Source: an uncultured Opitutia bacterium
GTDB lineage: Bacteria; Verrucomicrobiota; Verrucomicrobiia; Opitutales; Opitutaceae
DNA: 38,414 bases
Direction of reading: 5' to 3'
Assembly (NCBI GenBank): GCA_903859715.1
Contig: CAIONS010000017.1
Location: 1-38,414 of the forward strand
The notes under the pieces are model-generated. The model had not been told where the DNA came from. It saw nothing but the letters and a program-made list of their open reading frames with translations, and made no database searches. Positions 4,126-37,403 of this stretch are shown one piece after another (position 1 is the first letter of the stretch; each line of letters starts with the position of its first letter). The translations under genes and the position numbers were made by a program.

Positions 4126-4140
4126 GGGTGGCTCAAGTCT

Positions 4141-4229
4141 GTCATTTTGAGCGCAGCGAAAAATCCAGTGGGAATCCGTCGCGAGCTTCGATGATATCCA
4201 ACTGGATTCTTCACTTCGTTCAGAATGAC
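4141..4229. repeat. 89-bp palindromic element, family A copy 1
   Basis: Ends gtcattttgagcgcagcg (4141) and cttcgttcagaatgac (to 4229) are inverted copies with arms of about 29 bp. A second copy of identical length lies at 19556-19644. The element sits inside an operon, between two dehydratase genes. It could therefore act on mRNA stability or differential expression. Confidence 0.9.
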
Positions 4230-4260
4230 AAGGCAGGTTGGCGATGTGGACGGGGTGCCC

Positions 4261-5469: not shown

Positions 5470-5479
5470 GGGGTAAAAA

Positions 5480-19665: not shown

Positions 19666-20619
19666 CTACCCTTTCGCCGGCGCGTTCACCGCGGCGGCGC
19701 GGAAGTCGCCGGGCGCGCACAGGTCGCAGTCCTTCGTGCCCAATCGAGCATCGTCCATGCCGAGTTTCTGGCGGATGGCGATCAGCTCCTTGAGCTTCGC
19801 CGGGCCGAACGAATGCAGGCCGCTGCCCAGCTGCGAGGCGATCCAGACGGTTTTGCAGTAGGCGTCGATGTTCTCCATCTTCCAGTGCGCATCCTCGACG
19901 TCGCTGCCCCAGGCGATCACGCCGTGGTTCTGCATGAGGACGACCTGGTGATCGACGCCGACATGGCCAACGGCGTTCGCGTTCTCCGGCGTGCCGGGCG
20001 TTTGATACTCGGCCAGGCCGATCTTCCCGATGAAAACCTCCGCTTCAGGAATCAGGCACGGCGGCGGCACGACCGAGGCCACGGCAAACGCCGTCGCGTG
20101 CGGCGGGTGCGCATGCACGCAGGCGCGGGCCTTCGGCTGGCGCTTCATGATGCCGAGATGGGTCAGCGCCTCGCTCGTCCGCTTCTTCGTGCCCGCGACT
20201 TGCCGGCCCTCCAAATCGATCAGGCACATGTCGGAGGGCTTCATGAAGCCCTTGGAGATCAGCGTCGGCGTGCAAAGCACAAGCTCGTCGCTGACGCGCA
20301 CGGTAATGTTGCCGCCATTGCCGTCGACGTAGTCCTTTTCCCACATCCGCCGGCCGATGTCGCACATCTTGGCCTTGATCGCCTCCAGGGCGGGCGAATT
20401 GAAAAACTTCTCGATTGAAGCGGGATCCTTCAGGTCCACCGCATGGGCGCAGCCGCAGTCGGCCTGGGGAGCGGCGGACGCTGGCCGGGCCGGAAGGCGG
20501 CGGCTGCGCAGGAGGTCGCGCGCCGACGGCGTGAGAATCGCATCGGCCGGAATGGAGTCGGGACTGGCGCCAGAGCGCAGCAGGTGTTCGACATCCGCGG
20601 CAGTGATAACCTTTCGCAT
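19666..20619 (-). CDS. BMC-associated class II aldolase (fuculose-phosphate-aldolase family) with N-terminal module
   Basis: A 317-residue protein. Residues about 75-270 are a class II aldolase/adducin domain with the zinc site Glu150 (TSEALTH), His169 and His171 (VHAHPPHAT) and His232 (QNHGVIAWG), plus GNGGNITVR. The family cleaves L-fuculose- or rhamnulose-1-phosphate to DHAP and lactaldehyde. Residues 1-42 (VITAADVEHLLRSG, then ILTPSARDLLRSRRL) resemble the N-terminal module of BMC proteins such as EutT and may aid encapsulation. A linker holds Cys55-x-Cys57-x-His59, and the C-terminus holds Cys298-x2-Cys301, possibly an extra metal site. It ends the BMC operon, 7 bp after the preceding BMC-P stop. 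Kinase and isomerase genes for a phosphorylated route are not in the window. Confidence 0.9.
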   Translation of the reverse strand: MRKVITAADVEHLLRSGASPDSIPADAILTPSARDLLRSRRLPARPASAAPQADCGCAHAVDLKDPASIEKFFNSPALEAIKAKMCDIGRRMWEKDYVDGNGGNITVRVSDELVLCTPTLISKGFMKPSDMCLIDLEGRQVAGTKKRTSEALTHLGIMKRQPKARACVHAHPPHATAFAVASVVPPPCLIPEAEVFIGKIGLAEYQTPGTPENANAVGHVGVDHQVVLMQNHGVIAWGSDVEDAHWKMENIDAYCKTVWIASQLGSGLHSFGPAKLKELIAIRQKLGMDDARLGTKDCDLCAPGDFRAAAVNAPAKG

Positions 20620-20626
20620 GGGAAAT

Positions 20627-20920
20627 TTATTGGGGCGGTTGATGAAAGACTTCGTCGATGATGGCGGCGCAGTAGGCGTCCACTGGCGTCAGACCGGCAA
20701 ACGGCTTCGAGGCTTCCGAGCCTTCCGTGAAACCCACGATGCTTCCCACCCCGGCGCCGAGCGAATCGTAGACCACGAGGCCGGCATTGGAGGCCAGCGG
20801 TGCAGCCGGCTTGGCGTACTTTGCCGCGCTCCACGGCTGCACGAGCAGGAAACGTCCGCCGAGGTAGGCGGGATCCTGCCGGCTAAGGGTGACTTTGCCA
20901 ATGACGTGGCCGAGGCGCAT
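20627..20920 (-). CDS. BMC-P shell vertex protein (EutN/CcmL family), copy 1
   Basis: A 97-residue pentameric vertex-type shell protein. It starts MRLGHVIGKVTLSRQDP and contains GGRFLLVQPW, YDSLGAGVGSIVGFTEGSEA and a C-terminal DAYCAAIIDEV. This is the EutN/CcmL pattern of an N-terminal GxV strand, then VxVDSLGAG, then G-x-x-V. Relative to classic members it has a longer middle loop (AAKYAKPAAPLASNAG). Pentamers cap the twelve vertices of the polyhedral shell. It lies between the aldolase (7 bp) and BMC-P copy 2 (3 bp). Confidence 0.93.
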   Translation of the reverse strand: MRLGHVIGKVTLSRQDPAYLGGRFLLVQPWSAAKYAKPAAPLASNAGLVVYDSLGAGVGSIVGFTEGSEASKPFAGLTPVDAYCAAIIDEVFHQPPQ

Positions 20921-20923: not shown

Positions 20924-21187
20924 TCAGGAGGAGTCGTCCAAGATGGCGATGACCGAGTTGCGGAGCGGCGACTTGGGGTCGCCCACCAGGGTGCGAGTCG
21001 CGGCGCCGTCGGAGGAGACGAGCACGCGCTGGTGCTGGCCGGCGCCATGCGAGTCGACCGCGAGGACCGGAGCACCGTCCGCCTCGCCGCGCTCATTGAG
21101 CGGCTGGCAGATGACCGTGCGACAACCGTGCATGCTGGGATGGCACACGGTGGAAACGATCACTCCGTCAATGCGGGCGAGGAGCAT
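20924..21187 (-). CDS. BMC-P shell vertex protein, copy 2
   Basis: An 87-residue EutN/CcmL protein. MLLARIDGVIVSTVCHPSMHG leads into PVLAVDSHGAGQHQRVLVSSDG, then a short NSVIAILDDSS tail. The HGAG instead of LGAG at the turn and the short C-terminus set it apart from the other two. It probably contributes a distinct pentamer, or a distinct vertex type, to the shell. Spacing of 3-5 bp on both sides shows it is operonic. Confidence 0.92.
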   Translation of the reverse strand: MLLARIDGVIVSTVCHPSMHGCRTVICQPLNERGEADGAPVLAVDSHGAGQHQRVLVSSDGAATRTLVGDPKSPLRNSVIAILDDSS

Positions 21188-21192: not shown

Positions 21193-21516
21193 CTATTTCT
21201 TCGCCGGCTTGGCTTCGGGATAGATCGTCCGGTTGAGCACATCGACGGCGTCGACGATGCCCACGACCACGGCGTCCACCGGCAGCGTTTGCATGCCGGC
21301 GGCCTGGCGCGCGGAGCTGCCCTGGCAGAACAGGACGGTCTCGCCCTGCCCCGCGCCGAGCGAGTCCACGGCCACAATGGTGTTGGCGCCCGGGCGGAAC
21401 TGGGTGGGATTGGCTTCGTCCACGAGCAGCGGACGCAGCAGCAGGAGCTTCCGCCCCTGCATCGCCTCGTCCTTCTTGGTCGAGACGACATGGCCGATGA
21501 CACGTGCGAGGAGCAT
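21193..21516 (-). CDS. BMC-P shell vertex protein, copy 3
   Basis: A 107-residue EutN/CcmL protein. MLLARVIGHVVSTKKDEAMQ is followed by GRKLLLLRPLLVDE, VAVDSLGAGQGETVLFCQGSSAR and the C-terminal extension DAVDVLNRTIYPEAKPAKK. The frame is open upstream to 21630, but ATG 21516 matches the N-terminus shared with copy 2 and avoids overlap with BMC-H1. The Cys in FCQGSS is at the position where many vertex proteins have one. It sits 7 bp after BMC-H1. Confidence 0.93.
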   Translation of the reverse strand: MLLARVIGHVVSTKKDEAMQGRKLLLLRPLLVDEANPTQFRPGANTIVAVDSLGAGQGETVLFCQGSSARQAAGMQTLPVDAVVVGIVDAVDVLNRTIYPEAKPAKK

Positions 21517-21523: not shown

Positions 21524-21808
21524 TTATTTGGCTGACTTGGACAGGGCGGCGGCGACGTCGTCGTGCGGGCGGGCGATGACCTGCACGCTGACCACTTCAC
21601 CGGCGAGGCGGGCGGCCTGGGCGCCGGCATCGGTGGCGGCCTTCACGGCGGCGACGTCACCGGTGACGACCGCGCTGACCAGCGCGTGGCCGACCTGGCG
21701 GATGGGACCGGCGAGGGTGACGTTGGCTGACTTCAGCATGGCGTCGGTGCCGGCGATAAGGGCTGCAAGGCCCCGGGTTTCGAGGAGACCAATGGCTTTC
21801 TGGGACAT
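21524..21808 (-). CDS. BMC-H hexameric shell protein, copy 1
   Basis: A 94-residue Pfam BMC-type protein. The pattern is AIGLLETRGLAALIAGTDAML, then [27 protein letters not shown] and VVSVQVIARPHDD. Hexamers tile shell facets; the pore-loop segment would be near RQVGHALV. This copy shows the pore/loop region differently (PIRQVGHALVSAV) from copies 2 and 3. It is separated from copy 2 by 45 bp. Confidence 0.95.
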   Translation of the reverse strand: MSQKAIGLLETRGLAALIAGTDAMLKSANVTLAGPIRQVGHALVSAVVTGDVAAVKAATDAGAQAARLAGEVVSVQVIARPHDDVAAALSKSAK

Positions 21809-21853: not shown

Positions 21854-22144
21854 TCAGGCCGTGGTGGCGCCGATCCATTTGCCGAGCTGGCCGAGGTCCT
21901 CATGCGGGCGAGGGATAACCTGCACGCTGATGACCTCGCCGACCTTGGCGGCGGCCTCGGCGCCGGCGTCGAGGGCGGCCTTCACGGCGGCGACATCGCC
22001 GCGGAAAAAGGCGGTGACGTAGCCGGAGCCGATCTGCTCCCAGCCCGTCATGGTGACGCTGGCGGCCTTGAGAGCCGCGTCGGACGCTTCGAGAAGGGCG
22101 CAAAAGCCCTTCGTTTCAATCATGCCTAGTGCTGCTTGGCTCAT
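21854..22144 (-). CDS. BMC-H hexameric shell protein, copy 2
   Basis: A 96-residue BMC-domain protein: [52 protein letters not shown] and [13 protein letters not shown]. The GSGYV stretch is the pore loop and FFRGDV is the common strand. A C-terminal [10 protein letters not shown] tail extends past the core. ATG 22144 is used; the open frame begins earlier at 22201 but would add non-native residues. It lies 53 bp from copy 3. Confidence 0.95.
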
Positions 22145-22197: not shown

Positions 22198-22467
22198 TCA
22201 CAGGCCGACCTGCTTGAGCAGTTCGGCGTGAGGACGGGCGATGACGTGCGAGCAGACAAGCTCGCCGACACGCTTGGCGGCGTCGGCGCCGGCATCGACG
22301 GCGGCCTTGACGCTGCCGACATCGCCCTTGACGACGACGGTGATGAAGCCGCCGCCGATCTGGATCTGGCGGCCGAGGGTGACGTTGGCCGCCTTGACCA
22401 TGGCGTCGCTGGCTTCGACGCTGCCGACATAGCCGCGGGTTTCTACCATTCCGATGGAATCATTCAT
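22198..22467 (-). CDS. BMC-H hexameric shell protein, copy 3
   Basis: An 89-residue BMC-domain protein. [54 protein letters not shown] and [14 protein letters not shown] are visible. The pore loop GGGF is glycine-rich, suggesting a passage for small polar metabolites by analogy with other BMC-H pores. It is the first of three single-domain hexamer genes in transcription order, 53 bp after the tandem-domain gene. Confidence 0.95.
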
Positions 22468-22520: not shown

Positions 22521-23162
22521 TCAGATCCGGCTGAGGATTTTGCCGACGCCCTCGCTGGGACGGGCGATGACATGGGCGGAGACAAGCTTGCCGACGGACT
22601 CGGCGGCGGCGCGACCGGCCGCGACCGCGGCGGTGACGGCGGCGACATCGCCCTCGAAAATCACGGTGATGTAGCCACCGCCGAGTTTCTCCTTGGCGAT
22701 GACGCGCACGCCGGCGGCCTTGCAGGCGGCATCGGTGGCGGCGGTGACGGCGGTGAAGCCCTGCGTCTCGATCAAGCCGAGCGCCTCGGGAGTTTTGGTT
22801 TTATCAGTCATGGGATGAGCCCGGGGTCCGGGGATGAAGACGACTTCCTGTTCGAGCAAAGGCTGGTACTCCGGCGGACTCTCGATCACGCCCCACGCGC
22901 CCGCATCGGGCGAGTCGAGGACTTCCCCCGTGAAGGAGACCTTCATTTCCTCCGCCTGCTGCCGTGCCGACGCGACCGCAATGGCCACCGAGGCGGAGTC
23001 GCCCGTCAGCTTGAGGAAGAGTCCGTAGTAATCGTTGAGTTCCGCCTGCAACACCTGGACAAGCGCGGCCTTCTCCACGCGGTCGAGCACCACCAAGGCG
23101 GCGCCCAGCGAGTGAATCTCGAGCAGGGCGACGGCGGGTTGCCTGAGCGTGGTGGCGGACAT
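22521..23162 (-). CDS. BMC-T tandem-domain trimeric shell protein
   Basis: A 213-residue protein with two BMC domains. The C-terminal half (from about residue 118, EALGLIETQGFTAVTAATDA, then GGGYITVIFEGDV and SAHVIARPSEG) is a canonical BMC-H-like domain. The N-terminal half (PAVALLEIHSLGAALVVLD, then LNDYYGLFLKLTGDSASVAIAVASARQQAEE, WGVIESPP) is strongly diverged, keeping only the length and some signatures. The frame is continuous with no stop, so this is one polypeptide even though an internal Met sits at the junction. Trimers of such proteins occupy facets as pseudohexamers and often have larger gated pores. It is 9 bp after the TIM-barrel gene. Confidence 0.88.
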   Translation of the reverse strand: MSATTLRQPAVALLEIHSLGAALVVLDRVEKAALVQVLQAELNDYYGLFLKLTGDSASVAIAVASARQQAEEMKVSFTGEVLDSPDAGAWGVIESPPEYQPLLEQEVVFIPGPRAHPMTDKTKTPEALGLIETQGFTAVTAATDAACKAAGVRVIAKEKLGGGYITVIFEGDVAAVTAAVAAGRAAAESVGKLVSAHVIARPSEGVGKILSRI

Positions 23163-23171: not shown

Positions 23172-24017
23172 TCAGAGCTTCGCGGCGGTCGCGCGGAGAA
23201 AATCGCGGAGCCCGAGCGTCTCGGAGACGTTGTCGCTTTCGTTGCAGTGCTCCCAGTCGATCCAGATGTACTCGACGCCGATCCAGCCGCGGTAGCCGGC
23301 CTTTGCCATGGCCGCCAGCATCCGGGGATAATCGATCGTGTTCTGCTGGAAGTTGCACTGCAGGCGGCCGCGGCAGGCGCCGCGCATGTGGAAGTGGCTC
23401 GCGTGTTTGACCAGCGGCTCGACGCTGCGGTCGGAAATGCCCGCGCGGGTGAAATGCGTGTAGTCGAGCGTGAGCGTCAGGCCTGGCACGCGGCGCACAA
23501 GGTCGGCGGTCTCCTCGGGCGTGGTGACGATGGAGCCGACATGCGCCTCGGTGCCAAAGACCAGCCCGGCGGCCCGGCTCTGCTCGACGCGCCAGGCAAG
23601 CTCGGTAGCGGAACGCGCGAGCGAGGCGTCGCGGCCCTCCTCGGCGAATACAACACCGGGGAGCGTCGTGACATGGCGGGAACCGACGGCCTCGGCATAC
23701 TCGAGTGTGCGCAGGAACCAATCGCGCGCCTTACGGCGACGGCGGGCATCGGGCTGGTTGATGGCAAAGGGCGTGAAGTCGGGCGCCATCTGCAGGAACA
23801 CATCGGCGGCCACGAGGCCGCGGTCAGCTAGGGCGCGCTTCAGCTTGCGGGCGCTGACGGCCGGACGCTTGTACTCGTTGGAGGGCCAGAGATGGGAACG
23901 CTGCTCAAACAGGCCGAGGTCGACGCCAGTGAAGCCGAGGATGGCGATGAGGTCCAGCGCGTGGGCGTGGCTCAGCCGCGGAAAGGTAAAATCGGCGCAG
24001 GCAAATTTCGCTTTCAT
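23172..24017 (-). CDS. TIM-barrel sugar isomerase/epimerase (AP-endonuclease 2 family)
   Basis: A 281-residue xylose-isomerase-like TIM barrel. Likely metal ligands are Glu in GTEAHVGS, Asp and His in LDYTHFT, His in SHFHMRG and Glu in GVEYIW. Family members include sugar isomerases, epimerases, ketosugar-acid enzymes and hydroxypyruvate isomerase, so the exact reaction is open. The start ATG 24017 overlaps the SDR stop by 4 nt (coupled). It belongs to the BMC operon between the dehydrogenases and the shell genes. Encapsulation is uncertain because no obvious signal helix is seen. Confidence 0.9.
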   Translation of the reverse strand: MKAKFACADFTFPRLSHAHALDLIAILGFTGVDLGLFEQRSHLWPSNEYKRPAVSARKLKRALADRGLVAADVFLQMAPDFTPFAINQPDARRRRKARDWFLRTLEYAEAVGSRHVTTLPGVVFAEEGRDASLARSATELAWRVEQSRAAGLVFGTEAHVGSIVTTPEETADLVRRVPGLTLTLDYTHFTRAGISDRSVEPLVKHASHFHMRGACRGRLQCNFQQNTIDYPRMLAAMAKAGYRGWIGVEYIWIDWEHCNESDNVSETLGLRDFLRATAAKL

Positions 24018-24859
24018 GGGGTTGGGGAATTTTTCTGAAACGCGGTCGGCCCGGTGCACTGCCATTCCGCTGCCGTGAGGTAACCGCAGTCGATGGTGAG
24101 CGAGGTGCCGGTCACGCCGGCGGAGTCCTCGCAGCTGAAGTAGAGGATCGATTTCGCCACATCGAGCGGCGAGAGCGAGACCCCCATCGGCACGCGCTGC
24201 AGGCGGGCGTCGAGCGCCGCCTGCGGGTCGGGGCGGACGTTGAGGTGCTCCCACAGCATCGGGGTCTCCGTGATGCCGGGGCAGACGCAATTGCAGCGGA
24301 TGCCATGGGCCGCGTAGTCGAGCGCGATCGAGCGCGTGAGGCCCAGGATGGCGTGCTTCGTCGTCGTGTAGACGGGAGTGCGCGCCTGGCCAACGAAACT
24401 GCTGATCGAGCCGACGTTGACGACGTAGCCGCGCCGGGCCGCACGCAGGAGTGGAAAGCCGTGTTTGAAGGCAAAGAACATGGACTTCAGGTTGACGCCC
24501 ATGACGCGGTCCCACTGCGCCTCGGAATAGGTGTGCAGGTCGCCGATCTCCACCATGCCCGCGTTGTTGACCAGGATATCGAGGCGGCCGAACGCCTTCA
24601 CAGTGGAGGCGATGGACTGAGCCACCTCCGCCTCGGAGCTGACGTCGCACGCCAGCGCGAGTGCAGCGCCGGGGGTCCGGCGGTTGATGCGGGCGGCGAT
24701 CTTGCGGCCAAGCTCGAGCCGGCGGCCCACGACCGCAACCTGGGCGCCTTCCTGCGCGAAGAGTTCCGCCGCCGCCTCGCCGATGCCCGAAGTGGCTCCG
24801 CTGATCCAGGCCACGCGGCCGGCCAGCCGGCCGGGAGCTTTGGAAGATTTGGTTTTCAT
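24014..24859 (-). CDS. SDR-family oxidoreductase in BMC operon
   Basis: A 281-residue classical SDR. The glycine motif is SGATSGIGEAAAELF (near residue 20), NNAGM is intact, and the active site is YTTTK with Ser in VGSISS. The C-terminal TIDCGYLT replaces the usual DGG, then a short tail follows. The N-terminal stretch KTKSSKAPGRLAGRV is basic. It probably oxidises or reduces a sugar, sugar acid or aldehyde of the pathway and could recycle NAD(H) for a compartment. Overlap of 4 nt with the TIM-barrel gene and a 12-bp gap to the preceding dehydrogenase put it in the operon. Confidence 0.9.
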   Translation of the reverse strand: MKTKSSKAPGRLAGRVAWISGATSGIGEAAAELFAQEGAQVAVVGRRLELGRKIAARINRRTPGAALALACDVSSEAEVAQSIASTVKAFGRLDILVNNAGMVEIGDLHTYSEAQWDRVMGVNLKSMFFAFKHGFPLLRAARRGYVVNVGSISSFVGQARTPVYTTTKHAILGLTRSIALDYAAHGIRCNCVCPGITETPMLWEHLNVRPDPQAALDARLQRVPMGVSLSPLDVAKSILYFSCEDSAGVTGTSLTIDCGYLTAAEWQCTGPTAFQKNSPTP

Positions 24860-24871: not shown

Positions 24872-25912
24872 TTAAAGCCGGCAGACACGCCGCCATTTTT
24901 CCTGGAAGGATGGTTTCTCAAACACGGCCGGGTTCACCACGCCGCGCGGCTTCTTCCCAAGTGATAGATCGATCATGCCCTGACAGGCCGCACGGCCGAT
25001 GTCGCGGAACAGCTCGTTCGTCCACGCGATGCAGTGCGGGGCGAATAGCACGTTGTCCAACTCCGCCAGCCGGGGCGGCGTGTGCACCGGCTCCTGCGCA
25101 AAACAGTCCAGCGCGGCTCCCGCCAACTGGCCGGCCTTCAGCGCGGCGTACAACGCATCCTCGTCCACGATCCCGCCGCGGGCCGTGTTCAGCAGGTAGG
25201 CCGTGGGGCGCATGCGCGCCAGTTGGGCTGCGCCGATGAGGCCGCGAGTCTGCTCGGTCAAGGGACAGTGGATCGACACGAAGTCCGATCCGCTCATCAG
25301 CTCATCGAGCGTGACCTTCCGCACGCCGGCCTGGGCCGCGGCCGCCTCGTCCACGAAGGGATCGAACACCAGCGGCTGTTTCATGCCCCAGTTGGCCAGC
25401 AGCTGCAGCACGGTGCGCGCAATGCCGCCAAGCCCGATCAGGCCCAGCGTCCGGTCGCGCAATTCACTGCCCATGTAACGTGAGCGGGTGTCCCACCCTC
25501 CTGTGCGAATGAGTTTGTCCTTCACGCGCACATTATGGCTCAGCGCGATAATCCAGCCGACCGTCGCCTCCGCCACCGGACGATCGACGGCGCCCGAGGT
25601 GATATAAACCGCCACGTCCGCCGCGGTGCAGGCCGGCACGTCCACCGAATCGTAGCCCACGCCAAAACGCCCGACCGCGACGAGATCCCGGGCCTGCGAA
25701 ACCGATTGCGCCGTGACCTTGGGCGTCAGCACGATCACGCCGTTCGCGCCTGTGAGTTGATCCGAGGCAATCTCCGGACGATGGTCGGCAAAGGCCGCCT
25801 GCCGGATATGCGGCGCCGTCCCGAACACCGACAGCCCGATGTCGTCATATTTCGCGCGCCCGGTGGCATCGAAGAAATCGGCCGTGAGCCTGACGTTGAA
25901 AGGAGCGGGCAT
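24872..25912 (-). CDS. D-2-hydroxyacid dehydrogenase (SerA-like) in BMC operon
   Basis: A 346-residue NAD-dependent D-isomer 2-hydroxyacid dehydrogenase. The Rossmann motif is LGLIGLGGIARTVLQ, in which the last Gly of GxGxxG is Ala. The catalytic Arg (NTARGGIVDE), Glu (DCFAQEP) and His (FAPHCIAWT) are all present. The first 100 residues show a weak catalytic-domain half. It is related to phosphoglycerate and glyoxylate/hydroxypyruvate reductases. Here it may reduce a 2-keto acid or oxidise a 2-hydroxy acid made by the neighbouring aldolase, and cycle NAD. ATG 25912 is chosen; a GTG at 25939 would overlap the upstream gene. It follows that gene by 14 bp. Confidence 0.9.
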   Translation of the reverse strand: MPAPFNVRLTADFFDATGRAKYDDIGLSVFGTAPHIRQAAFADHRPEIASDQLTGANGVIVLTPKVTAQSVSQARDLVAVGRFGVGYDSVDVPACTAADVAVYITSGAVDRPVAEATVGWIIALSHNVRVKDKLIRTGGWDTRSRYMGSELRDRTLGLIGLGGIARTVLQLLANWGMKQPLVFDPFVDEAAAAQAGVRKVTLDELMSGSDFVSIHCPLTEQTRGLIGAAQLARMRPTAYLLNTARGGIVDEDALYAALKAGQLAGAALDCFAQEPVHTPPRLAELDNVLFAPHCIAWTNELFRDIGRAACQGMIDLSLGKKPRGVVNPAVFEKPSFQEKWRRVCRL

Positions 25913-25926
25913 GGGTACGGGAATTT

Positions 25927-27594
25927 TCAGGCGCTCCACGCCATGGCGGGCTCAACCGCGCAGGCTTCCTCGACGACGATGCGCTCGGGTTTCGGGCCAG
26001 CATAGACCCAGATCATGCCCATGGGGGCGCCGCTCTCGTTGATGAAATAATGCACGCGCCCGCGCGGCTGCAGCGCCGTGGCCTGCTGATCCATCGTGTA
26101 GCGCCGGCCCTCGACGATGCAGGTGGCCTGACCCTCGACGATGCAGATGGATTCGTCGAAATCGTGCAGATGCGCCGGGAGCCGGCCCCCGTGCTGGAAC
26201 AGCCCGTAGCCGCCGCTCATTTCCAAGCCAGGCACGAGGTCGGCATTGAAATAGTCGACGAACGCCGCGTTGTTGCCCGGCGAGTAGCGCTCGACCTTCT
26301 TCACATAGGTCACGCGCTCGGCGCCGGGCTGCGTCTGCGTGACCTCGGGCATCGTGCGGCGAGGGAAAAACTCCTTCACCAGCTCGCGCGCCGGAGCCGA
26401 TGAGGCCAGGGCGATGTGAAACACGGCCAGCTTCGATCGGGAAAGATTGGTGACGCGGTGCGCAATGCCGCGCGGGATCGTGACATTGTCGAGCGGCCCG
26501 AGCTCGTACATCCGGCCCTCGACATCGACCAGCGCGCGACCCTGCAGGAGCGTGATCGACTCGGCGAAAGTGTGCCGGTGACAGGGCAGCACGCCGCCGG
26601 GCTGGAAGGTGACGAGACCGGTGGTAAGGTTGCGCGCCTGGTTGTGCGCACCGACCATGCAGTCGAAGGTGATGCCGGGAGCGATTTCGAGCTGCGGGCC
26701 GCTGCCGCGTGCGTTCATCACCTCGTTGCGATCCGGCCGGAATTCAGGCGGAGCACACTTGACGGCTTTTTCCACTGCGAGGGAGGCCGGGCTGTTTTCC
26801 AAAGTGAAGCTCGCGCGGATCTGGCGATCGCGGCCCTGGGAGCCGAGCATCTTGTGCAGGCTGCGCAGCATGAGGCTGGCATCGAGGCCAAGGCCCAGCA
26901 TGGAAAAACCCTGTTCGCGCCGGTGGGCGAGATTGGCCTCGTCCGTGGCGATAATGCCACAGTGCTTGCCCGCTTGGCAGAGGGCGTCCTTCGCCTGCAC
27001 GATCAGCTCGGCCACGCCTGGACCTTCCCATTTTCCGGGAAAGCCGGCGGTGGAGGAAAGATCGGCGGGACCGAAGAAGAAAAGATCCGAGCCCTTCACC
27101 TTCGCGAGCTGGTCGATTGCCTGCACCGCGCGCACGGTCTCGATGATCGGCACCACGAGCACATGGGCATCGGCCTCGCCCGCGTGCTCGACAAAGCACT
27201 GGCCCCAGCAGGTCGCGCGCTCGGCGCCGATGCCACGGATGCCGGCCGGCGGGTACGTGGCGGCGGCGATGGCGGCTTCCAGCTGCAGCGGCGTCTCGAT
27301 CCAGGGGATGACCACGCCATCGGCGCCAATGTCGAGGGCGCGCTTGATCAAGGCCGGGGAATTTTCGGCCAGGCGCACGAGGACGACAGTGTCGCTGCGC
27401 ACGGCGGCGCGGATGTGCTCGACGATCTCCTTCCAGTCGAGGTGCCCGTGCTCCGCGTCGATGGTCACCCAGTCGAGCCCGAGTGACACCGCCATCTCGC
27501 AAATGCTCGCCGACTCCAGCGTGATCCACAGCCCGTAGACGGGCTGACGGGACTGCAGTTTCGCGCGCAGACGCTGGATGGCGGTGACTTTCAT
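25927..27594 (-). CDS. HpcH/HpaI-type aldolase fused to two cupin domains
   Basis: A 555-residue fusion. Residues 1-260 are a class II HpcH/HpaI aldolase with the known catalytic set: His49 (DAEHGH), Arg74 (VRLAEN), Glu in PIIET, and Asp in FGPADLS. It shows PPAGIRGIGAERA as in HpaI/RhmA. These enzymes split 2-keto-3-deoxy acids to pyruvate and an aldehyde. Residues about 285-400 form cupin 1 (LPCHRHTFAES, later PRGIAHRV) and about 420-540 cupin 2 (LPAHLHDFDESICI, later GRVHYFIN), both with HxH, Glu and late His metal ligands. Cupins could bind sugar or metal, isomerise, or sense substrate. The start ATG 27594 is chosen over the open frame to 27648. It is the first gene of the BMC operon, divergent from the AraC gene. 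Confidence 0.9.
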   Translation of the reverse strand: MKVTAIQRLRAKLQSRQPVYGLWITLESASICEMAVSLGLDWVTIDAEHGHLDWKEIVEHIRAAVRSDTVVLVRLAENSPALIKRALDIGADGVVIPWIETPLQLEAAIAAATYPPAGIRGIGAERATCWGQCFVEHAGEADAHVLVVPIIETVRAVQAIDQLAKVKGSDLFFFGPADLSSTAGFPGKWEGPGVAELIVQAKDALCQAGKHCGIIATDEANLAHRREQGFSMLGLGLDASLMLRSLHKMLGSQGRDRQIRASFTLENSPASLAVEKAVKCAPPEFRPDRNEVMNARGSGPQLEIAPGITFDCMVGAHNQARNLTTGLVTFQPGGVLPCHRHTFAESITLLQGRALVDVEGRMYELGPLDNVTIPRGIAHRVTNLSRSKLAVFHIALASSAPARELVKEFFPRRTMPEVTQTQPGAERVTYVKKVERYSPGNNAAFVDYFNADLVPGLEMSGGYGLFQHGGRLPAHLHDFDESICIVEGQATCIVEGRRYTMDQQATALQPRGRVHYFINESGAPMGMIWVYAGPKPERIVVEEACAVEPAMAWSA

Positions 27595-27719: not shown

Positions 27720-28628
27720 ATGAGCGAAGACCTCAAAAGCTTTCACCGTTACCTGCTGGCCGACTCGAAAGACCGCGACTGGGGCATCTACGCGACCTCC
27801 GCCGGCTATGTGGCCATCGAGCCCGGGAAGCCCTACCCTCCGCCGGGACATCCGAAGAGCCACACGTTCAACTGGGAGGAGGGCCGGAAACTCGATGAGC
27901 TGCAGATCCATTTTATCACCCGCGGCAGCGGGGTCTTCGAGTCGTCCGCCGAAGTCGGGCGCAGCCGGCGGATCACACCGGGCAGCGCTTTCATCCTGTT
28001 TCCCGGCGTCTGGCACCGCTATGCGCCGCTGCCGCAGACCGGCTGGTTCGAGTACTGGATCGCCTTGAAAGGCGACTATGTGGACCAGCTCCTGAGGAAG
28101 AAACTATTCGGGCCGGGCCATCCGGTGTTCGCTCCGTCCGACAGCAGCTCCCTGCTCCGGTTGTTCACGGAAGTCGTGGCCTGCCTGCGCCATCATCCGG
28201 TGGGCACGTCGCGTGTGCTGGGCTCGCTCGGCGGGCTGATCCTGGCCGAGGTGCAAACCGGCACGGTCGCCGTGCCTCCGGCGGAAAACCGCACGGAGCA
28301 TCTCGTGCATGAGGCCAAGCTGATGCTGGCCCAGCACCTCGAGCAGGAAGTCGACCTCGAGGTCATGGCGAAAAAACTGAGCGTGGGCTACCACTGGCTG
28401 CGCCGGGCCTTCAAGCAGGAGACCGGGCAGTCGCTGCACCAGTACCGGCTGCAGCTCCGGCTGAGCTGCGCGAAGGTGCTGCTCAAGAACTCCGACGCGA
28501 CCGTGGAGCGGATCGCCCAGCAGACCGGGTTCACCGATCCGTATTATTTCTCGCAGATCTTCAAGCGGAAGACCGGCTGCTCGCCCACGAGTTGGCGGAA
28601 GGCGGAGACCTCCGCCATTCCGATCTGA
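27720..28628 (+). CDS. AraC-family transcriptional regulator of the BMC locus
   Basis: A 302-residue AraC/XylS regulator. The N-terminal half is a cupin-like sensor (LQIHFITRGSGVFES, ITPGSAFILFPGVWHRYAP, GWFEYWIAL) that should bind a small sugar or sugar acid. The C-terminal 100 residues hold the two helix-turn-helix motifs: LEVMAKKLSVGYHWLRRAFK and VERIAQQTGFTDPYYFSQIF, ending KTGCSPTSWRK. Divergent placement beside the BMC operon makes it the likely activator, with repeats at 27682-27704 as candidate sites. ATG 27720 avoids a longer low-quality N-terminus. It is convergent with rpoZ, 17 bp between stops. Confidence 0.93.
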   Translation: MSEDLKSFHRYLLADSKDRDWGIYATSAGYVAIEPGKPYPPPGHPKSHTFNWEEGRKLDELQIHFITRGSGVFESSAEVGRSRRITPGSAFILFPGVWHRYAPLPQTGWFEYWIALKGDYVDQLLRKKLFGPGHPVFAPSDSSSLLRLFTEVVACLRHHPVGTSRVLGSLGGLILAEVQTGTVAVPPAENRTEHLVHEAKLMLAQHLEQEVDLEVMAKKLSVGYHWLRRAFKQETGQSLHQYRLQLRLSCAKVLLKNSDATVERIAQQTGFTDPYYFSQIFKRKTGCSPTSWRKAETSAIPI

Positions 28629-29094: not shown

Positions 29095-32000
29095 TCAGCG
29101 GCGCCGGCGACGCACCACGGCACCAAGGGTCAGCAGGCCGGTCGCCATCAAGGCCCACGTCGAGGGCTCGGGCACCGGCGTGAAGTTCAGCATCAGGTCA
29201 TTACCGCTCTGGGAAACAGAGAACTGTCCGGCGCCGGTCGAATTGGTGAAATTTGACTGGTCGATGATGAAGGCGCTGGAGCTGAAGTTGCTGACGCCCG
29301 ATCCGGTCGAGACCAGCAGCCAGGAATAACCCTGGCCTCCGTTGAAGTTCGCGGCATTGCCCGCCTGATTGGTGCCGGGATCGAACGAGTAGAGGTGGAT
29401 GTAGAATTCGCTGCCCGCCGTCGCCGTGATGGTGAGACTGCCGCTGATATTGAGCAGGCTGAACCCGCTGCCGGACGTTCCATTGGCATCCGCGATGGAA
29501 AAATTCAGGCCGCCGGTGTTGAGGGTATGCGCAAAGGTGAGCGAAGTGCCGCCGCCAAAGGTCAGCGTGCCGACCGCCGGCACGTTGGTTCCGCCCGCGT
29601 CGACCGCCACGGTCGCGATGCCCGGGGCCAGCAACGAACCGCCCTGAATGGTGAGATTGCCGCCCGGGGAAAACGTGCCGTAGCCGGCGAGCGTGCCACC
29701 GGTGAGAGTAATGGGATTGGTGAGCGTGACGCCGGTGTTGAGGGCCAGACCGCCACTGACGGTCACGCCCGCAATGCCCAGGGCGGAACTGTTGCTCGCG
29801 GTGATCGAGCCTGTGGAGGTGATCGTGGTTCCACCAGAATAGGTGTTCACGCCCCGGAGATTCAGATTGTCGCCGTCGACCACCAAGGCGCCATTGCCGG
29901 CAATCGTGCCGTTATAATCGGGGTCGACGCCGAGTTCAAAGGTGAGCACCGCGCCCGTGCCGATGTTGATGATGTTGCCCGAATTGGGCTCGTCGCTGTT
30001 GAAACCGTTGATCGTCGGGGTCGAATTGTTGGCAAACGTGAGCGTCGAGCCGGCCGAGAGGAGCACATCGGACAGGGACGGACTGCCTCCGGCATACGAG
30101 AAGTCCGCGCTTGCCCCGGTGAGTGAGAGCTGCGTGACCACGGGACTCACGGCGGTGAAATGAATCGTGCTCCCGGCGGTGGCGACCAACGCGCTTTGGC
30201 CCAAGCCGTTGGCACTTCCGACCGTCAGGGTCGTGTCGTTGACGGTGGTCGTCCCGGAGTAAGTGCTGTTGCCCGAAAGAGTCACGGGACCGTTGATGTA
30301 CAACTGGCCGGCGCCATATGCGTCACTGATCGCTCCCGCCAAGGTAAGAGTATACGGAGAGCCCGTGTAGTTGAGTTGGAGACCTGTATAGGGCACGGCA
30401 ACATTGTTGGGCAGCGTCACGCTGCCGCCAAAAGGCATTAGTCCAACCGCGGCATTGGTCGTCGACACCAAGAGTGTGCCGCTGCCGAGCGAATCGTTAT
30501 TCCCGACGTAGAGGTAGCCGCTATTCAGGGTCGTACCGCTGGAATAGGTGTTAGCATTGGGCAGGATGACCGAGGAGATGCTGCCATAACTTTCAAGCGG
30601 GCTGGAGAGACCGATGACGACGGAATTGACTCCGGTGAGTGACGCTGACGTCACCGTCACCTGGCCGCCTTTCACTCCGGAAAACTGAAAGGTGTTGGCG
30701 AAGGGCGTAATTGTTCCCGAGTAGGTAGCGGCGGTCGCGGTGCCGAGGAAAACGTCCGCGCCATTCGTCGAAAGATCGATCGCTCCGCTGATGTTTCGCG
30801 CCGAATTCGGTGAGAAATAATCGAAGCCAAGCACGATGGAGGAGGTCGGCGATCCCGCGACGGTCATCAGATTGATGAAATTCTGCGGACCGGAGCCTGT
30901 GTCCGTGATCGTTGAATTCACCGTGTTGCCGACATAGCCGCCGCCAGAGTCCTGCCCGATGTAGAAGCTCGAGGAAGGCAACGGGGTGTCAAAGATCAGC
31001 GCCGCGCCGTCCAAATGAGTACCACTCGTGTAGCTGAGGCTACCGCTCAAGATCAGGGTCAGCGGTGCATTGCCGGGAAGAACCAGCAGCTGGTTGGCCT
31101 GCGGGAGGGAAGCATAGGTGTCGTTCACGAGCGCACTCGTTACGGTCAGCGTGCCGCCGCCGCCGCCGAAGAAATATGCCGTGCCGTACTGCTTGTTCAG
31201 ACCGCCCGGGGGAATGATCTGACCCGAAAGGATCGCCTTCGTCGCGGAGCCCAGCCCGACAAAAGTACCATAGGTCGTCTGGAAATTAGTGAGATCGATG
31301 GTATCGGTAAAAGTAATCACAGAACCTGACGTGGTATCGAAACCCAGCGTGCCGTTGAAGCTGCCCGGCGAAATCAGGCCCGACGAAGTAATGAACGCGG
31401 CCACGTGGGTATCGTAGCTGCCGCCCAGGCCCAGATAGTTGCTGTAGCCCGTGCCGATGTCCGACACTCCGGAAAGCTGCGTCGGACCTGCGCCGTCGAA
31501 AATCACCGACACATTGTCCTCCAGGTCGATCCGGGAGACGTTCGTGATCGAACCTTGGATGATCACCAGCGAATTGCCGCCGTTCGGGCTGCCCAGATCG
31601 AGGCAAACTCCCGGCGCGCTGCCCGCCAGATTGCCCGCAAAGGTGACGGTCGTGTTGGGATTGAGATCGATGTCCAGATCCGACGTCCCGCTGTTCGCGA
31701 CCAAAGTCGCGTTCCCGCCGAACTTCAGGCTGGCTTGGGGCGAGTAGCCGTAATTGGGGATGGTTGCACCAACGGTCACCGGATACCCGGAGGTGTTATC
31801 ACCGAAGACCAAGGCGTTCCCGAGCACGATCGAACTACCTGTCGGGATCAAAAGTGTGGTCCAATCGCCCAAGGTCAGCGTCCCGGTTCCCACCGGCGTG
31901 CCGGTGGCACCGAGCATCAAGGTAGCGTCACCCGAAACCGTCACCCCGCCGCTGAAGGTGCTCGCTCCGTTGTTCAGGGTGTAAGCGTAGCCGTAGCCAT

Positions 32001-32463
32001 TCGCCAAGAGGAGTGTGCTCGTGTTTCCGCCGGAAATTGCCCCGTTCACCGTGATGGGGCCACCCGCCCAGGTTTGGGTCGCGGACAAGGTCACCGGCGC
32101 GGTGATGACCAGCGAACTGACTCCATCGCCGTTCCCTGCGAGCATGATGCCATTGGCGCCCAGTGTCAGTGTCTGGGTCCCGTAAATGACCGGCGAAACG
32201 CTGCTGGTCGCGGACGACGCCTGCAGCCCGAGGAAATTCGCCGTCACATCCAGATGGAGATTCGTCTCGCTGGTGTCGTTGAAGACCAGTGTGCGGGTCC
32301 CATCCACCACCGGTACCGTGCCACTGGCCCAGTTCGTGGCGCTGCTGAAATTATCGTCCGGGAATCCCCCCTCCCAAATCGCCGTCTGGGCGCGGGCGGC
32401 TGCGGCAAAAAACAGGAGCGCTATCAAAGAGATCGCACAAGAAACTAACTTGGGGCGGAACAT
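29095..32463 (-). CDS. PEP-CTERM surface protein with autotransporter-associated beta-strand repeats
   Basis: A 1122-residue secreted protein. The signal peptide is residues 1-26 (LVSCAISLIALLFFAAAARA, cleavage after the last Ala). The body is made of repeated autotransporter-associated beta-strand blocks (for example LTLSGNSTYSGTTTVND, NLRGVNTYSGGTTITSTGS) rich in Gly, Ser, Thr and Asn, expected to form a long beta-helix. The C-terminus is a canonical PEP-CTERM signal: PVPEPSTWALMATGLLTL, hydrophobic, then RRRRR. Such tails are cleaved by exosortase, linking the protein to exopolysaccharide export; a Wzc-like gene lies 3 kb away. ATG 32463 is preferred; a TTG at 32481 would add MHKKFG. No passenger enzyme domain is seen, and function is probably adhesion or matrix. 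Confidence 0.92.
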   Translation of the reverse strand: MFRPKLVSCAISLIALLFFAAAARAQTAIWEGGFPDDNFSSATNWASGTVPVVDGTRTLVFNDTSETNLHLDVTANFLGLQASSATSSVSPVIYGTQTLTLGANGIMLAGNGDGVSSLVITAPVTLSATQTWAGGPITVNGAISGGNTSTLLLANGYGYAYTLNNGASTFSGGVTVSGDATLMLGATGTPVGTGTLTLGDWTTLLIPTGSSIVLGNALVFGDNTSGYPVTVGATIPNYGYSPQASLKFGGNATLVANSGTSDLDIDLNPNTTVTFAGNLAGSAPGVCLDLGSPNGGNSLVIIQGSITNVSRIDLEDNVSVIFDGAGPTQLSGVSDIGTGYSNYLGLGGSYDTHVAAFITSSGLISPGSFNGTLGFDTTSGSVITFTDTIDLTNFQTTYGTFVGLGSATKAILSGQIIPPGGLNKQYGTAYFFGGGGGTLTVTSALVNDTYASLPQANQLLVLPGNAPLTLILSGSLSYTSGTHLDGAALIFDTPLPSSSFYIGQDSGGGYVGNTVNSTITDTGSGPQNFINLMTVAGSPTSSIVLGFDYFSPNSARNISGAIDLSTNGADVFLGTATAATYSGTITPFANTFQFSGVKGGQVTVTSASLTGVNSVVIGLSSPLESYGSISSVILPNANTYSSGTTLNSGYLYVGNNDSLGSGTLLVSTTNAAVGLMPFGGSVTLPNNVAVPYTGLQLNYTGSPYTLTLAGAISDAYGAGQLYINGPVTLSGNSTYSGTTTVNDTTLTVGSANGLGQSALVATAGSTIHFTAVSPVVTQLSLTGASADFSYAGGSPSLSDVLLSAGSTLTFANNSTPTINGFNSDEPNSGNIINIGTGAVLTFELGVDPDYNGTIAGNGALVVDGDNLNLRGVNTYSGGTTITSTGSITASNSSALGIAGVTVSGGLALNTGVTLTNPITLTGGTLAGYGTFSPGGNLTIQGGSLLAPGIATVAVDAGGTNVPAVGTLTFGGGTSLTFAHTLNTGGLNFSIADANGTSGSGFSLLNISGSLTITATAGSEFYIHLYSFDPGTNQAGNAANFNGGQGYSWLLVSTGSGVSNFSSSAFIIDQSNFTNSTGAGQFSVSQSGNDLMLNFTPVPEPSTWALMATGLLTLGAVVRRRRR

Positions 32464-32718
32464 CCCAAACTTCTTATGCAAGCCACTTGCGAGATCAAGA
32501 TTGGATTTTCTGCCCTATACGCCGGCGAGCAGCCCTTTGGCTTTGCCAGCATGACGCCTTTAGGAAAATCCGATGCGCGCGGGATCGTCCGAGTACGCCG
32601 CAGACCTCTGCAAAGGCGGACGGCGCCGGCTGATATCGGTTCAATTCCGCAGCTCAATTGTACGATGTGCATCACATGATTTTTCGGAAAATTACTCCGC
32701 TACAAGGAACCGCTTGCG
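32464..32718. promoter_or_regulatory. 255-bp divergent intergenic region with possible structured leader
   Basis: It separates the PEP-CTERM gene (minus) from the Ig/repeat gene (plus) and should hold both promoters. In the minus-strand leader, gccggc at 32521-32526 can pair with 32625-32630, enclosing a hairpin CGTCCG/CGGACG at 32586-32622. A tract CAAAGCCAAAGGGCT sits near the 3' side. It resembles no riboswitch closely enough for a call. For the plus gene, AAGGA at 32704-32708 is a fair Shine-Dalgarno. Confidence 0.35.
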
Positions 32719-35175: not shown

Positions 35176-37323
35176 CTACTTCAACTCCAGTCGGTCGCCG
35201 CTATCAGCTGACTTTCCCGCGCCCTTGGCCGAGGCACTCCGCCGGCGCTTGCCGCCGCCTTCACTGTAGTAGGAGTAGTTGTTCGTGTAGTAGCCGTAAT
35301 CCTCGCCGGAATTCAACGGCACCTGGTTGAGGACCACCCCGAGCAGCGGGGTCTTCAGGCCTTCCACGATCTGCTGCGCGCGGATCACCATGCTCTGCGG
35401 ATTGCGGCGGTGCTGGATCAGCAGCACGGCGCCATCCACTGCGCTCGCCAGCACGCTGGCATCGCTCACGCCGATGATCGGCGGGGAATCGAACACGATC
35501 TTGTCATAGCGGCCGCGCAGCGTGGCGATGAGGTCCTTCAGTCGGTTGAGATGCAGCAGGCCGAGCGTGAAGCCGGGAGCGCCACCGCTGGAGATAAAAT
35601 CGAGGTTGGGTGCGATGGATTTCTGGATGACGGCATCCAGCGGCTGCCGGTTCAGCAGGTACTCCGAAAGTCCCGGCTCCCGGGGACGGCCCGCCAGATG
35701 ATGCTGCGTCGGGCGGCGCACGTCGGAATCGATCAGGATGACGCGCTCGCCGGCGGCGGCCATGAGGCGGACGAGATGGTGGAGCGTGGTGGACTTGCCC
35801 TCGCCCGGTCCGGCGGAAAACAGCACAAGACTCGCCGGCTGGCCGGGCTTGAGCGCGAGGTTCAGGTTGGTGTGCAGCACGCGGTAAGGCTCGGCCTCGG
35901 AAGGATCCGAGTCATCATCCATCGGATCGCGGTGAAACGGGATGACCCCGAGCACGCCCAGTTTCAGACGCGTCTCGACATCGGCCACGTTGCGGAAGCT
36001 CGTGTCGAAATACTCGAGCAGCACAGCCACGCCGATGCCGAGGAGCGCCCCAAAGAGAAACGCGAAGGAGATGTTCAGCGGCCAGCTCGGCCGGCTCGGC
36101 CGGCGGGCCGCCTCCGCGGTGTTGAGAATCTCGATGGTGTGCTTCGGCACCTGGAAATCGATCTCCCGCTGGCGGAGCGTGAGCTTGAGCGTGGTCATGA
36201 GGCGCGTCTCATCGTCGAGTTTTTGCGCGGCCTCCTCGAACGGCCGCATGCGGTCGCGGGCCGAAAGGATCTGGTCGATCTTGGCCTGCCCGAGCTGCTG
36301 CTTGAGCTCGGTGACGCGGGACTCCGCCTCCTTGTAGGCGATCTCCAGCGCGCTTTCGTAGCCGCGCAGCTGGCCGTCGAGCTGCTCCTTGATCTTGGCG
36401 CGGTTCTCGACCGCCGAGACGAGGTCCGGGTGCGCCTCGCCGAGGCGGGCCTTGAGCTTCGTGACGTTTTGGTCGGCGAGCAGGTAGGCCTGCAGCAGGT
36501 TCTGGATGTTCGGGTCCTGGATCAGCTCGGAGTTGACCAGACTCAGGCGGTCCTCAAACGGGATGCTCCGGAAGCGCTCCCAGCGCGTCTTGCGGCCAAT
36601 GGCGTCGACGCTGAGCGCGATCAGCGAATTCTGCATCTGGCGCAGGGTCTCGATCTCCATGTCGGAGTAGCGGGCATTGAGATCGACGCCGGAAATGTTC
36701 AGGTCCTTGCGGAGTTTTTCCACGCTGTCGCGCTGCGCGGAGACGATGCGCTCCTGCGAGGCAAGTTCGTCGCTCAGCTTCGCGAGCCCCTCGCGCTGCT
36801 CGGACGTGGCGAGGTAGATGCGGTCATCCGAGTAGACGCGGGCAATTTCATTGGCGATGGCGGCGCCCAGATCCGCGTCCTGAGCGTAGACATTGATCTC
36901 GATCAACGACGAGCTGCGCTGCGACTCAACCCGGAGCATCTTGTCGGTGAGGTAGCGATACGTGACCGCGGACGGGAGCGCCCCGGTGACTCCCAGCGTG
37001 GCAGCCAGACGGTTGTTGAGCCCGAGGTTCGTGATCACCGGGTAGAGGATCTTCTCGGACTGCAGGATCTTGAACTGGTCCTGCAGGAAATACGGATCGT
37101 AGCTGCCGCTGCTCTGCGCCTGAAAGAGCCGCACCTCGCCCTCGGGTTTCTCGACCCGGATCTTCGTCGTCGCGAGGTACCAGCGCGGCAGAAAGGCGGT
37201 GACTACAACCGTGGTGATGACCACCAGGGTCAGGATCAGAAAAATGAGCGCCTGGCGCAACCGGAGCAGGCGCAGGAAATCGGCGAGCGTCGCGCTGTCC
37301 TTGCTGACGGGGGAATGGGCCAT
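35176..37323 (-). CDS. Wzc-like polysaccharide chain-length/tyrosine autokinase
   Basis: A 715-residue inner-membrane protein joining a Wzz-type chain-length domain to a bacterial tyrosine kinase. Transmembrane helix 1 is near residues 28-46 (LIFLILTLVVITTVVVTAFL). Residues about 180-400 are a periplasmic coiled-coil region. The second helix ISFAFLFGALLGIGVAVLL is followed by the cytoplasmic kinase. The kinase has Walker A SAGPGEGKSTTLHHL, A' VILIDSDVRRP and B KIVFDSPPIIG, and ends in a tyrosine cluster (DYGYYTNNYSYYSE) for autophosphorylation. It should control the length and export of an exopolysaccharide. ATG 37323 is preferred over the longer frame to 37407. It follows the beta-barrel gene on the same strand. 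Confidence 0.95.
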   Translation of the reverse strand: MAHSPVSKDSATLADFLRLLRLRQALIFLILTLVVITTVVVTAFLPRWYLATTKIRVEKPEGEVRLFQAQSSGSYDPYFLQDQFKILQSEKILYPVITNLGLNNRLAATLGVTGALPSAVTYRYLTDKMLRVESQRSSSLIEINVYAQDADLGAAIANEIARVYSDDRIYLATSEQREGLAKLSDELASQERIVSAQRDSVEKLRKDLNISGVDLNARYSDMEIETLRQMQNSLIALSVDAIGRKTRWERFRSIPFEDRLSLVNSELIQDPNIQNLLQAYLLADQNVTKLKARLGEAHPDLVSAVENRAKIKEQLDGQLRGYESALEIAYKEAESRVTELKQQLGQAKIDQILSARDRMRPFEEAAQKLDDETRLMTTLKLTLRQREIDFQVPKHTIEILNTAEAARRPSRPSWPLNISFAFLFGALLGIGVAVLLEYFDTSFRNVADVETRLKLGVLGVIPFHRDPMDDDSDPSEAEPYRVLHTNLNLALKPGQPASLVLFSAGPGEGKSTTLHHLVRLMAAAGERVILIDSDVRRPTQHHLAGRPREPGLSEYLLNRQPLDAVIQKSIAPNLDFISSGGAPGFTLGLLHLNRLKDLIATLRGRYDKIVFDSPPIIGVSDASVLASAVDGAVLLIQHRRNPQSMVIRAQQIVEGLKTPLLGVVLNQVPLNSGEDYGYYTNNYSYYSEGGGKRRRSASAKGAGKSADSGDRLELK

Positions 37324-37403
37324 GAAGTGGTGGAGAACGAACGCCCCGGCAGGAAATCCGGCAAGCTCATTGTACCCGGGCGCCGCGCAGCCGCGGCGCC
37401 GGG

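Follow-up and report, generated by a model that had tools for sequence, protein, structure and literature searches.

We analyzed a window of 38,414 nucleotides, the whole stretch from position 1 to 38,414 of contig CAIONS010000017.1 (GenBank assembly GCA_903859715.1), from an uncultured Opitutia bacterium of the family Opitutaceae. The window encodes an HpcH/HpaI aldolase fused to a double cupin (bicupin). The fusion is the first gene of a run of 12 genes on the same strand, with spacings of -13 to 53 bases, that also encodes shell proteins of a bacterial microcompartment (BMC). The order is fusion, 2-hydroxyacid dehydrogenase (HADH), short-chain dehydrogenase/reductase (SDR), a TIM-barrel protein (TIM), BMC-T, three BMC-H, three BMC-P, and a class II aldolase (Table 1). 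This agrees with the initial annotation, which placed the fusion at the head of a shell-gene operon, and the genes are probably transcribed together. We refer to the fusion with HADH, SDR, and TIM as the cassette.

Table 1. Features of the operon and the fusion protein; positions are those of the window.
Feature	Coordinates	Strand	Details
HpcH/HpaI aldolase-bicupin fusion	25927..27594	minus (27594..25927)	555 aa, ATG start
HpcH_HpaI domain, residues 20-243	26866..27537	minus	Pfam E 2.6e-31; H49, R74, E152, D178
First Cupin_2 domain, residues 327-393	26416..26616	minus	H339, H341, E345, H379
Second cupin metal site, residues 475-515	26050..26172	minus	H475, H477, E481, H515
D-isomer-specific 2-hydroxyacid dehydrogenase (HADH)	24872..25939	minus	PF02826, PF00389; GTG start uncertain
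SDR oxidoreductase	24014..24859	minus	
AP_endonuc_2 / xylose-isomerase-like TIM barrel	23172..24017	minus	PF01261
BMC-T shell protein	22521..23162	minus	
BMC-H 1	22198..22467	minus	
BMC-H 2	21854..22144	minus	internal ATG chosen
BMC-H 3	21524..21808	minus	
BMC-P 1	21193..21516	minus	PF03319
BMC-P 2	20924..21187	minus	
BMC-P 3	20627..20920	minus	
Class II (AraD/FucA-like) aldolase, PVM signature enzyme	19666..20619	minus	PF00596 E 1.2e-45
AraC-family regulator (AraC_binding + HTH), divergent	27720..28628	plus	

An intact aldolase-bicupin fusion

The fusion frame has zero internal stops; an alternative GTG 18 codons upstream would extend the protein to 573 amino acids. It contains the PF03328 domain and the H/R/E/D active site of the HpcH/HpaI family, and Pfam finds Cupin_2 in two stretches of the C-terminal part (E 5.9e-25). 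The four HpaI residues and both sets of cupin ligands that the initial annotation reported in one 555-residue frame are present, and all 12 positions (four HpaI, eight cupin) are invariant in 33/33 aligned fused proteins, 16 from Opitutaceae and 17 from other groups. We take these positions to be catalytic in the HpaI part and metal ligands in the cupin part, as in the two families. A sequencing frameshift joining two genes, which the same annotation had raised as a concern, is ruled out because 16/252 Opitutaceae genomes, the window's included, carry the (nearly) full-length fusion, covering at least residues 1-549 with 77-100% identity. With 33 fused homologues, a chance fusion is also rejected.

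The aldolase half belongs to the same fold family as the HpaI and RhmA (YfaU) pyruvate aldolases and has all four of their active-site residues. It differs from them in its fused bicupin and in scoring below both cut-offs. The best NCBIfam match is HpaI (179.5 bits, cut-off 368.8), followed by GarL and RhmA, all below cut-off. The 21 sequence relatives of the fusion in the PDB (E 0.001) cover the aldolase half only. Fold prediction for the whole fusion, from 16 close homologues, was poor (pLDDT 57, pTM 0.44) and the model was not used.

Among the partner proteins, HADH gave broad phosphoglycerate-dehydrogenase-like matches, and no PDB relative of the TIM-barrel protein was found at E 0.001. 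Two other genes in the window, identified by reading, are unrelated to the fusion: a large autotransporter-like repeat protein with a PEP-CTERM-like end (29095-32481) and a Wzc-like chain-length/tyrosine-kinase protein (35176-37407).

Distribution and the link to microcompartment genes

At E 1e-45, 17 of the 252 Opitutaceae genomes were matched, 16 by the fused protein and one (G602) by separate genes. In an even sample of the phylum there are full-length matches in 5/387 genomes, all of them Opitutaceae. A sample of Planctomycetota (n=294) contains three full-length fusions and two more with an aldolase match only. A species-wide scan with the bicupin alignment found 56 loci (numbered L; genomes are numbered G): 31 fused in one frame, 6 whose aldolase gene is separate but within the locus, and 19 where none was seen. 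Of the 31 fusions, 14 lie on contigs from Opitutaceae genomes already in the 252-genome search. At L111 the two halves are in overlapping frames, which may be an assembly frameshift. The 17 fusions outside Opitutaceae include those of Aquisphaera insulae, a Phycisphaerae genome, Akkermansiaceae, and Agriterribacter humi (Bacteroidota), and the cassette spans at least three phyla (Verrucomicrobiota, Planctomycetota, and Bacteroidota). A HADH homologue is found at 29 of the 31 fused loci, SDR at 22 (distant paralogues included), and TIM at 20.

The Opitutaceae fusions nest inside a mainly Planctomycetota group in the bicupin tree, and the unfused bicupin of G602 belongs to another group, made up entirely of unfused proteins (split 100/99). 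Three changes of the fused state are required on this tree, two of them forced by well-supported branches. In the aldolase tree the G602 aldolase clusters with those of the fusions (100/99), on a long branch of uncertain exact position.

We looked for shell genes in flanks of at most 10 kb, often cut by contig ends. Twelve of the 31 fusions have shell genes in the fetched stretch, all in Opitutaceae, and 19 do not. Two of these 19 (L079, L086) are Opitutaceae contigs that end early, and no shell gene was found in the fetched flank of the 17 fused loci outside the family. These 17 loci lead us to reject a fusion unique to BMC loci. The initial annotation had named a fusion common outside BMC loci as evidence against its reading, and this is in part what we find. 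The link to BMC genes is nonetheless not chance, because 19/21 non-Opitutaceae genomes that hold these loci (17 fused, 4 unfused) have PF00936 matches and because the unfused pair of G602 is inside a Planctomycetes-Verrucomicrobia-type (PVM) locus. That locus (L124 8996-19008) encodes an unfused HpaI aldolase, bicupin, and BMC-T, then a complete PVM run. PF00936 matches were not found in the genomes G620 (Agriterribacter) and G622. In Planctomycetota, PF00936 occurs in 15/15 genomes with a locus vs 94/291 others sampled (Fisher p 1e-7), and in Opitutaceae, BMC genes occur in 15/16 fusion genomes vs 103/236 others (p 6.5e-5), with both tests inflated by relatedness, genome size, and incomplete assemblies.

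We consider it possible, though unlikely, that the cassette is cytosolic, the BMC linkage in Opitutaceae reflecting co-regulation of two lactaldehyde-forming pathways and the fusion never entering a shell. The 17 shell-less flanks outside Opitutaceae are consistent with this, as are the fusion protein, which has no encapsulation-peptide-like extension, and Agriterribacter, which has the operon in a genome where no PF00936 match was found. However, in 14/16 Opitutaceae fusion genomes the cassette is followed by a BMC-T gene on its own contig, and the contigs of the other two (G524, G527) end first. The separate aldolase of G602 has an N-terminal extension of ~40 residues that by eye resembles encapsulation peptides. 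The moment of its moderately amphipathic stretch is 0.47, compared with 0.69 for the PVM aldehyde dehydrogenase (AldDH) and 0.32 for PduL, in a scan that is illustrative only, as several other segments also scored high. We predict that cassette proteins may be encapsulated.

Separately, other aldolases are found next to BMC-T genes. At L138 (7338-8989) and L134 (9452-11148), in genomes that carry the fusion elsewhere, a BMC-T (49% and 39% identical to the window's, respectively) adjoins a DHDPS-family aldolase, assigned by Pfam at L138 and by reading at L134. An SDR-like gene and an MR_MLE dehydratase-family gene are near the pair at L138. Such pairs may indicate that dedicated BMC-T genes accompany other pyruvate-type aldolases as well. 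Four Planctomycetota loci (L133, L135, L136, L137) have a lone BMC-T (36-39% identity) among apparently unrelated genes.

Substrate and the role of the bicupin

The last enzyme of the known non-phosphorylative L-rhamnose route yields pyruvate and L-lactaldehyde, as described in PMC3870299. PVM compartments are described as handling lactaldehyde from fucose and rhamnose (PMC8857213), a role that PMC4207490 also supports. We compared the neighbors of 31/56 loci, leaving out 14 Opitutaceae and 11 others, and counted families present in at least three loci. Rhamnose genes (RhaT, RhaM, GH78) are near eight of the 31. RhaT is at L095, L111, and L114 and rhaM at L092, L102, and L104 (each Pfam-confirmed 3/3); GH78 is at L095 and L109 by Pfam and at L096 by similarity. 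The RhaT of L111 scores 502.8 bits against an equivalog cut-off of 468, and its gene shares 4 bases with the start of the aldolase gene. AldDH genes occur at L109, L111, L126, and L127 (Pfam-confirmed at L109, L111, and L127), and the L109 copy exceeds the cut-off of PRK10090 (726.3 vs 500), which we take to be AldA. Both BMC-less genomes (L109, L111) have AldDH at the locus vs 1/19 with BMC (Fisher p 0.014; the test was picked once the data were known). Also present are SGL lactonase-family genes at L116, after the aldolase, and L117, PhyH dioxygenase-family genes at L090, L102, L109, and L111 (Pfam) and L119 (similarity), and Apiosidase-like genes at L109 (Pfam) and L090, L114, and L127 (similarity).

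These neighbors favor L-rhamnose as the sugar and lactaldehyde as the product, and they suggest that the fusion breaks a rhamnose-like sugar down to a toxic aldehyde. The initial annotation had listed 2-keto-3-deoxy-rhamnonate, -fuconate, and -galactonate as substrates to test, and the RhaT, RhaM, GH78, and AldA-like neighbors in relatives make the rhamnonate type the leading candidate. We give about an even chance to the reading that the fusion is a two-function catabolic enzyme in a non-phosphorylative 6-deoxyhexose (most likely L-rhamnose) pathway that serves a PVM-type compartment in Opitutaceae. Its N-terminal HpaI-type aldolase would yield pyruvate and L-lactaldehyde by splitting 2-keto-3-deoxy-L-rhamnonate or a closely related 6-deoxy compound, and the bicupin at the C-terminus would act on the adjoining step. 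Our guess is an isomerase or dehydratase that makes the aldolase substrate, because a pathway step is missing and the cupin is fused to the aldolase. HADH, SDR, and the TIM-barrel protein would perform the preceding oxidation and isomerization steps. In Opitutaceae the cassette would have gained a dedicated BMC-T and become a second lactaldehyde source for the PVM-type microcompartment. Like the non-phosphorylative L-rhamnose pathway in PMC3870299, the proposed route has a final L-2-keto-3-deoxyrhamnonate aldolase and, at some loci, dehydrogenase- and lactonase-family neighbors; unlike it, the cassette lacks a rhamnonate dehydratase and adds the bicupin, HADH, and TIM barrel.

A separate sugar-acid-like cluster is present in the window at 1049-8072 on the minus strand, ~12 kb from the operon end. 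It has two MR_MLE dehydratase-family genes, nearest to galactonate and gluconate/galactonate dehydratases and below cut-off, a weak MBL-fold lactonase-like gene, and, by reading, two SDRs and split transketolase halves. This cluster could supply the dehydratase missing from the cassette.

Several observations weigh against the rhamnose-compartment reading. The fusion scores far short of all aldolase equivalog cut-offs (RhmA, NF007521, 120.5 vs 441 bits), and the many bicupins that fit the bicupin model with near-tied scores leave the reaction unreadable from the fold. No sugar-acid dehydratase was found in the cassette, which leaves the classical rhamnonate route incomplete at the locus, and no rhamnose gene was identified beside the window's operon in a scan that covered only some of the window's open reading frames. 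Outside Opitutaceae, only 4/17 fused loci have a rhamnose gene (L092, L102, L104, L109). An Apiosidase-like gene occurs at 4/31 loci vs three each for RhaT and RhaM, and the sugar could differ. On the compartment side, L126 has AldDH at the locus in a genome with BMC, G616 and G617 show PF00936 only as one lone BMC-T, and one of the three sampled Planctomycetota fusion genomes, G756, has no BMC match (the other two do). No clear encapsulation-peptide-like extension is evident on the fusion.

It is improbable, in our view, that the substrate is another sugar acid (for example a branched or uronic one, released by apiosidase-like enzymes) and the product formaldehyde, glycolaldehyde, or another aldehyde. 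This would suit the Apiosidase-like genes at L109, L090, L114, and L127, the PhyH genes at L109, L102, L111, L090, and L119, and the distance of the aldolase from the RhmA cut-off. It fits poorly with the RhaT of L111, which passes its equivalog cut-off and whose gene overlaps that of the aldolase, with RhaM and GH78 at further loci, and with the lactaldehyde role described for PVM compartments (PMC8857213; PMC4207490).

The bicupin half was modeled on its own with AF2 from 42 sequences (pLDDT 94.2, pTM 0.92), and its predicted structure is an intact two-cupin fold with 3His-1Glu sites. Across the 42 bicupins, which include stand-alone proteins (L108 was left out for a stop codon), the second site is invariant in 42/42 and the first is conserved in at least 90%. 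The best VIA structure match is the quercetinase-like 1y3t (Z 25.9, rmsd 2.5 over 249 residues, 17% identity), and quercetinase, oxalate decarboxylase, DUF861, and seed-globulin bicupins are tied or near-tied; KduI and IolB are absent among the 50 structure matches listed in each of two comparisons. By profile, the quercetinase and oxalate decarboxylase families match at best with E 1.3e-4, over ~60 residues. We put little weight on the bicupin being a ligand-binding sensor or structural part with no enzyme activity. It matches the sugar-sensing cupin family AraC_binding (6.1e-9), but both 3-His/1-Glu sites are invariant in 33/33 fusions, and stand-alone bicupins adjoin HADH and HpaI-family genes in Acidobacteria (L114, L116, L127).

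Locus classes and the shell without its core

Metabolosomes are understood to have a common core of aldehyde dehydrogenase and phosphotransacylase (PTAC). The fusion loci of 15/16 Opitutaceae genomes could be typed into two classes that differ in this core. The G524 contig ends after the TIM gene, and matches to PF00936, PduL, and PVM AldDH were not found in that genome. In class B (G060, G525, G526, G522, G528, G283), fusion-HADH-SDR-TIM-BMC-T forms a satellite; apart from it, PduL, AckA, and PVM AldDH accompany BMC-H and BMC-P genes at another place in the genome (6/6). In class A (G000, the window's genome, with G529, G369, G521, G527, G590, G395, G018, and G404), the cassette goes together with shell genes in PVM order and a class II aldolase; in G527 this set is split between two contigs.

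All nine class A genomes lack the PVM CoA-acylating AldDH (E 1e-60) and PduL (PF06130) genome-wide, as does G524, and each gene is present in 7/17 of the genomes searched. The fetched class A stretches gave no match to AckA, an LDH-type dehydrogenase, DeoR, or PduS; AckA, LDH, and DeoR were not sought genome-wide. The absences are firm for G018, a single contig listed as 100% complete, and weaker for G404 (89%) and G590 (81%).

The shell is otherwise retained. Eight of nine class A genomes have the full set of seven shell genes plus the class II aldolase, and the contig of the ninth, G404, ends in BMC-P 1. One Glu and three His of this aldolase, presumably its catalytic zinc site, are invariant in 15/15. 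We compared 9/12 operon genes, among them five shell genes out of seven and the class II aldolase, with three partners each, the farthest of which has dS close to 1. Values of dN/dS are 0.05-0.22 in 27/27 comparisons, and the five tested shell genes are under purifying selection. The class A shell genes, taken with the class II aldolase, fall into a single clade (SH-aLRT 100, stem 0.32) across five genera, and the cassette tree mixes classes A and B (three changes forced), on quick trees without bootstrap in which G404 is only 42% filled. We therefore predict that the core-less shell arose once and that either it or the cassette was exchanged. The idea that this shell is a decaying remnant of a PVM locus is very unlikely: the locus has lost AldDH, PduL, and AckA, of which AldDH and PduL are missing from the whole genome, and the clade has a long stem, but 8/9 genomes keep every shell gene and the class II aldolase, dN/dS is low for this aldolase and the five shell genes tested, and the single clade spans five genera.

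A bifunctional rhamnulose-1-phosphate aldolase/dehydrogenase is kept in 8/9 class A genomes (not G404) and in 14/17 searched, at 83-100% identity to the query. The window genome's copy passes TIGR02632 (975 vs 568 bits), and a nearby rhamnulokinase-like gene is below cut-off. We take RhaEW to be of the same family as TIGR02632. In other bacteria, RhaEW is described as oxidizing lactaldehyde to lactate (PMC3870299). The retained enzyme could explain why the CoA route is dispensable. As a replacement in class A we rejected an AldA-like enzyme: matches in 15/17 genomes (E 1e-60) are only 31-36% identical and we claim no orthologue.

In class A, then, the cassette appears to have joined a PVM-derived shell that keeps the class II aldolase. 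As AldDH, PduL, and AckA are no longer encoded with this shell, the aldehyde would be handled differently, perhaps via the rhamnulose-phosphate aldolase/dehydrogenase encoded elsewhere in the genome. Only tentatively, and with less confidence than the rhamnose pathway itself, we propose a microcompartment without the AldDH/PTAC core, served by the pyruvate aldolase-bicupin of a non-phosphorylative rhamnose pathway, from which lactaldehyde would be released or oxidized CoA-free. This module would have arisen once in Opitutaceae, by merging of a satellite (cassette and BMC-T) with a stripped PVM shell.

The window contains the PVM set of a PF00596 class II aldolase, three BMC-H, three BMC-P, and one BMC-T, in the PVM shell order H1 H2 H3 P1 P2 P3 followed by the class II aldolase, and its BMC-H and BMC-P proteins are 53-93% identical to those of PVM loci in Opitutaceae. 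It differs from PVM in that the locus lacks AldDH, PduL, AckA, the LDH-type dehydrogenase, and DeoR (AldDH and PduL genome-wide) and gains fusion-HADH-SDR-TIM-BMC-T and the AraC regulator. The 2021 BMC catalogue (PMC8217296) names BMCs without AldDH BUF, and by the catalogue's description the window's locus is formally one of these, although it is recognizably PVM-derived and has a predicted substrate. The acidobacterial ACI type of the catalogue shares the class II aldolase, hydroxyacid dehydrogenase, and BMC-P triplet, with AldDH outside the main locus. It differs in phylum, in having its AldDH on a satellite (no PVM-type AldDH was found in the window genome), and in that the catalogue's main text does not mention an HpaI-bicupin for it. 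The merging of SPU6 into EUT3 described there likewise brought a satellite with BMC-T and new signature enzymes into a main locus, with other enzymes; the window's group has also lost the AldDH/PTAC core.

No paper joining the terms HpcH, cupin, fusion, and aldolase was found in the open-licence literature, which does not show absence from print. The main text of PMC8217296 contains none of pfam03328, pfam07883, and cupin. In the available text of PMC4207490 the sole cupin mentioned is EutQ. That of PMC13274419 has cupins only as KdgF/KdgR and lists a BMC locus with a PduP-type dehydrogenase, and that of PMC12388122 describes an Opitutaceae isolate with a complete PVM-like locus and mentions no cupin.

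We regard the class A locus as a PVM compartment in a new form, which formally counts as BUF because it lacks AldDH. It offers a candidate origin and substrate for at least one such BUF-like compartment, and its fused bicupin is an uncharacterized protein in a cassette that is partly rhamnose-linked. Close relatives within one family show a full PVM locus with a satellite, an unfused parallel within a full PVM locus, and a core-less shell with an aldolase. This series makes it testable whether a catabolic shell is useful without its core.

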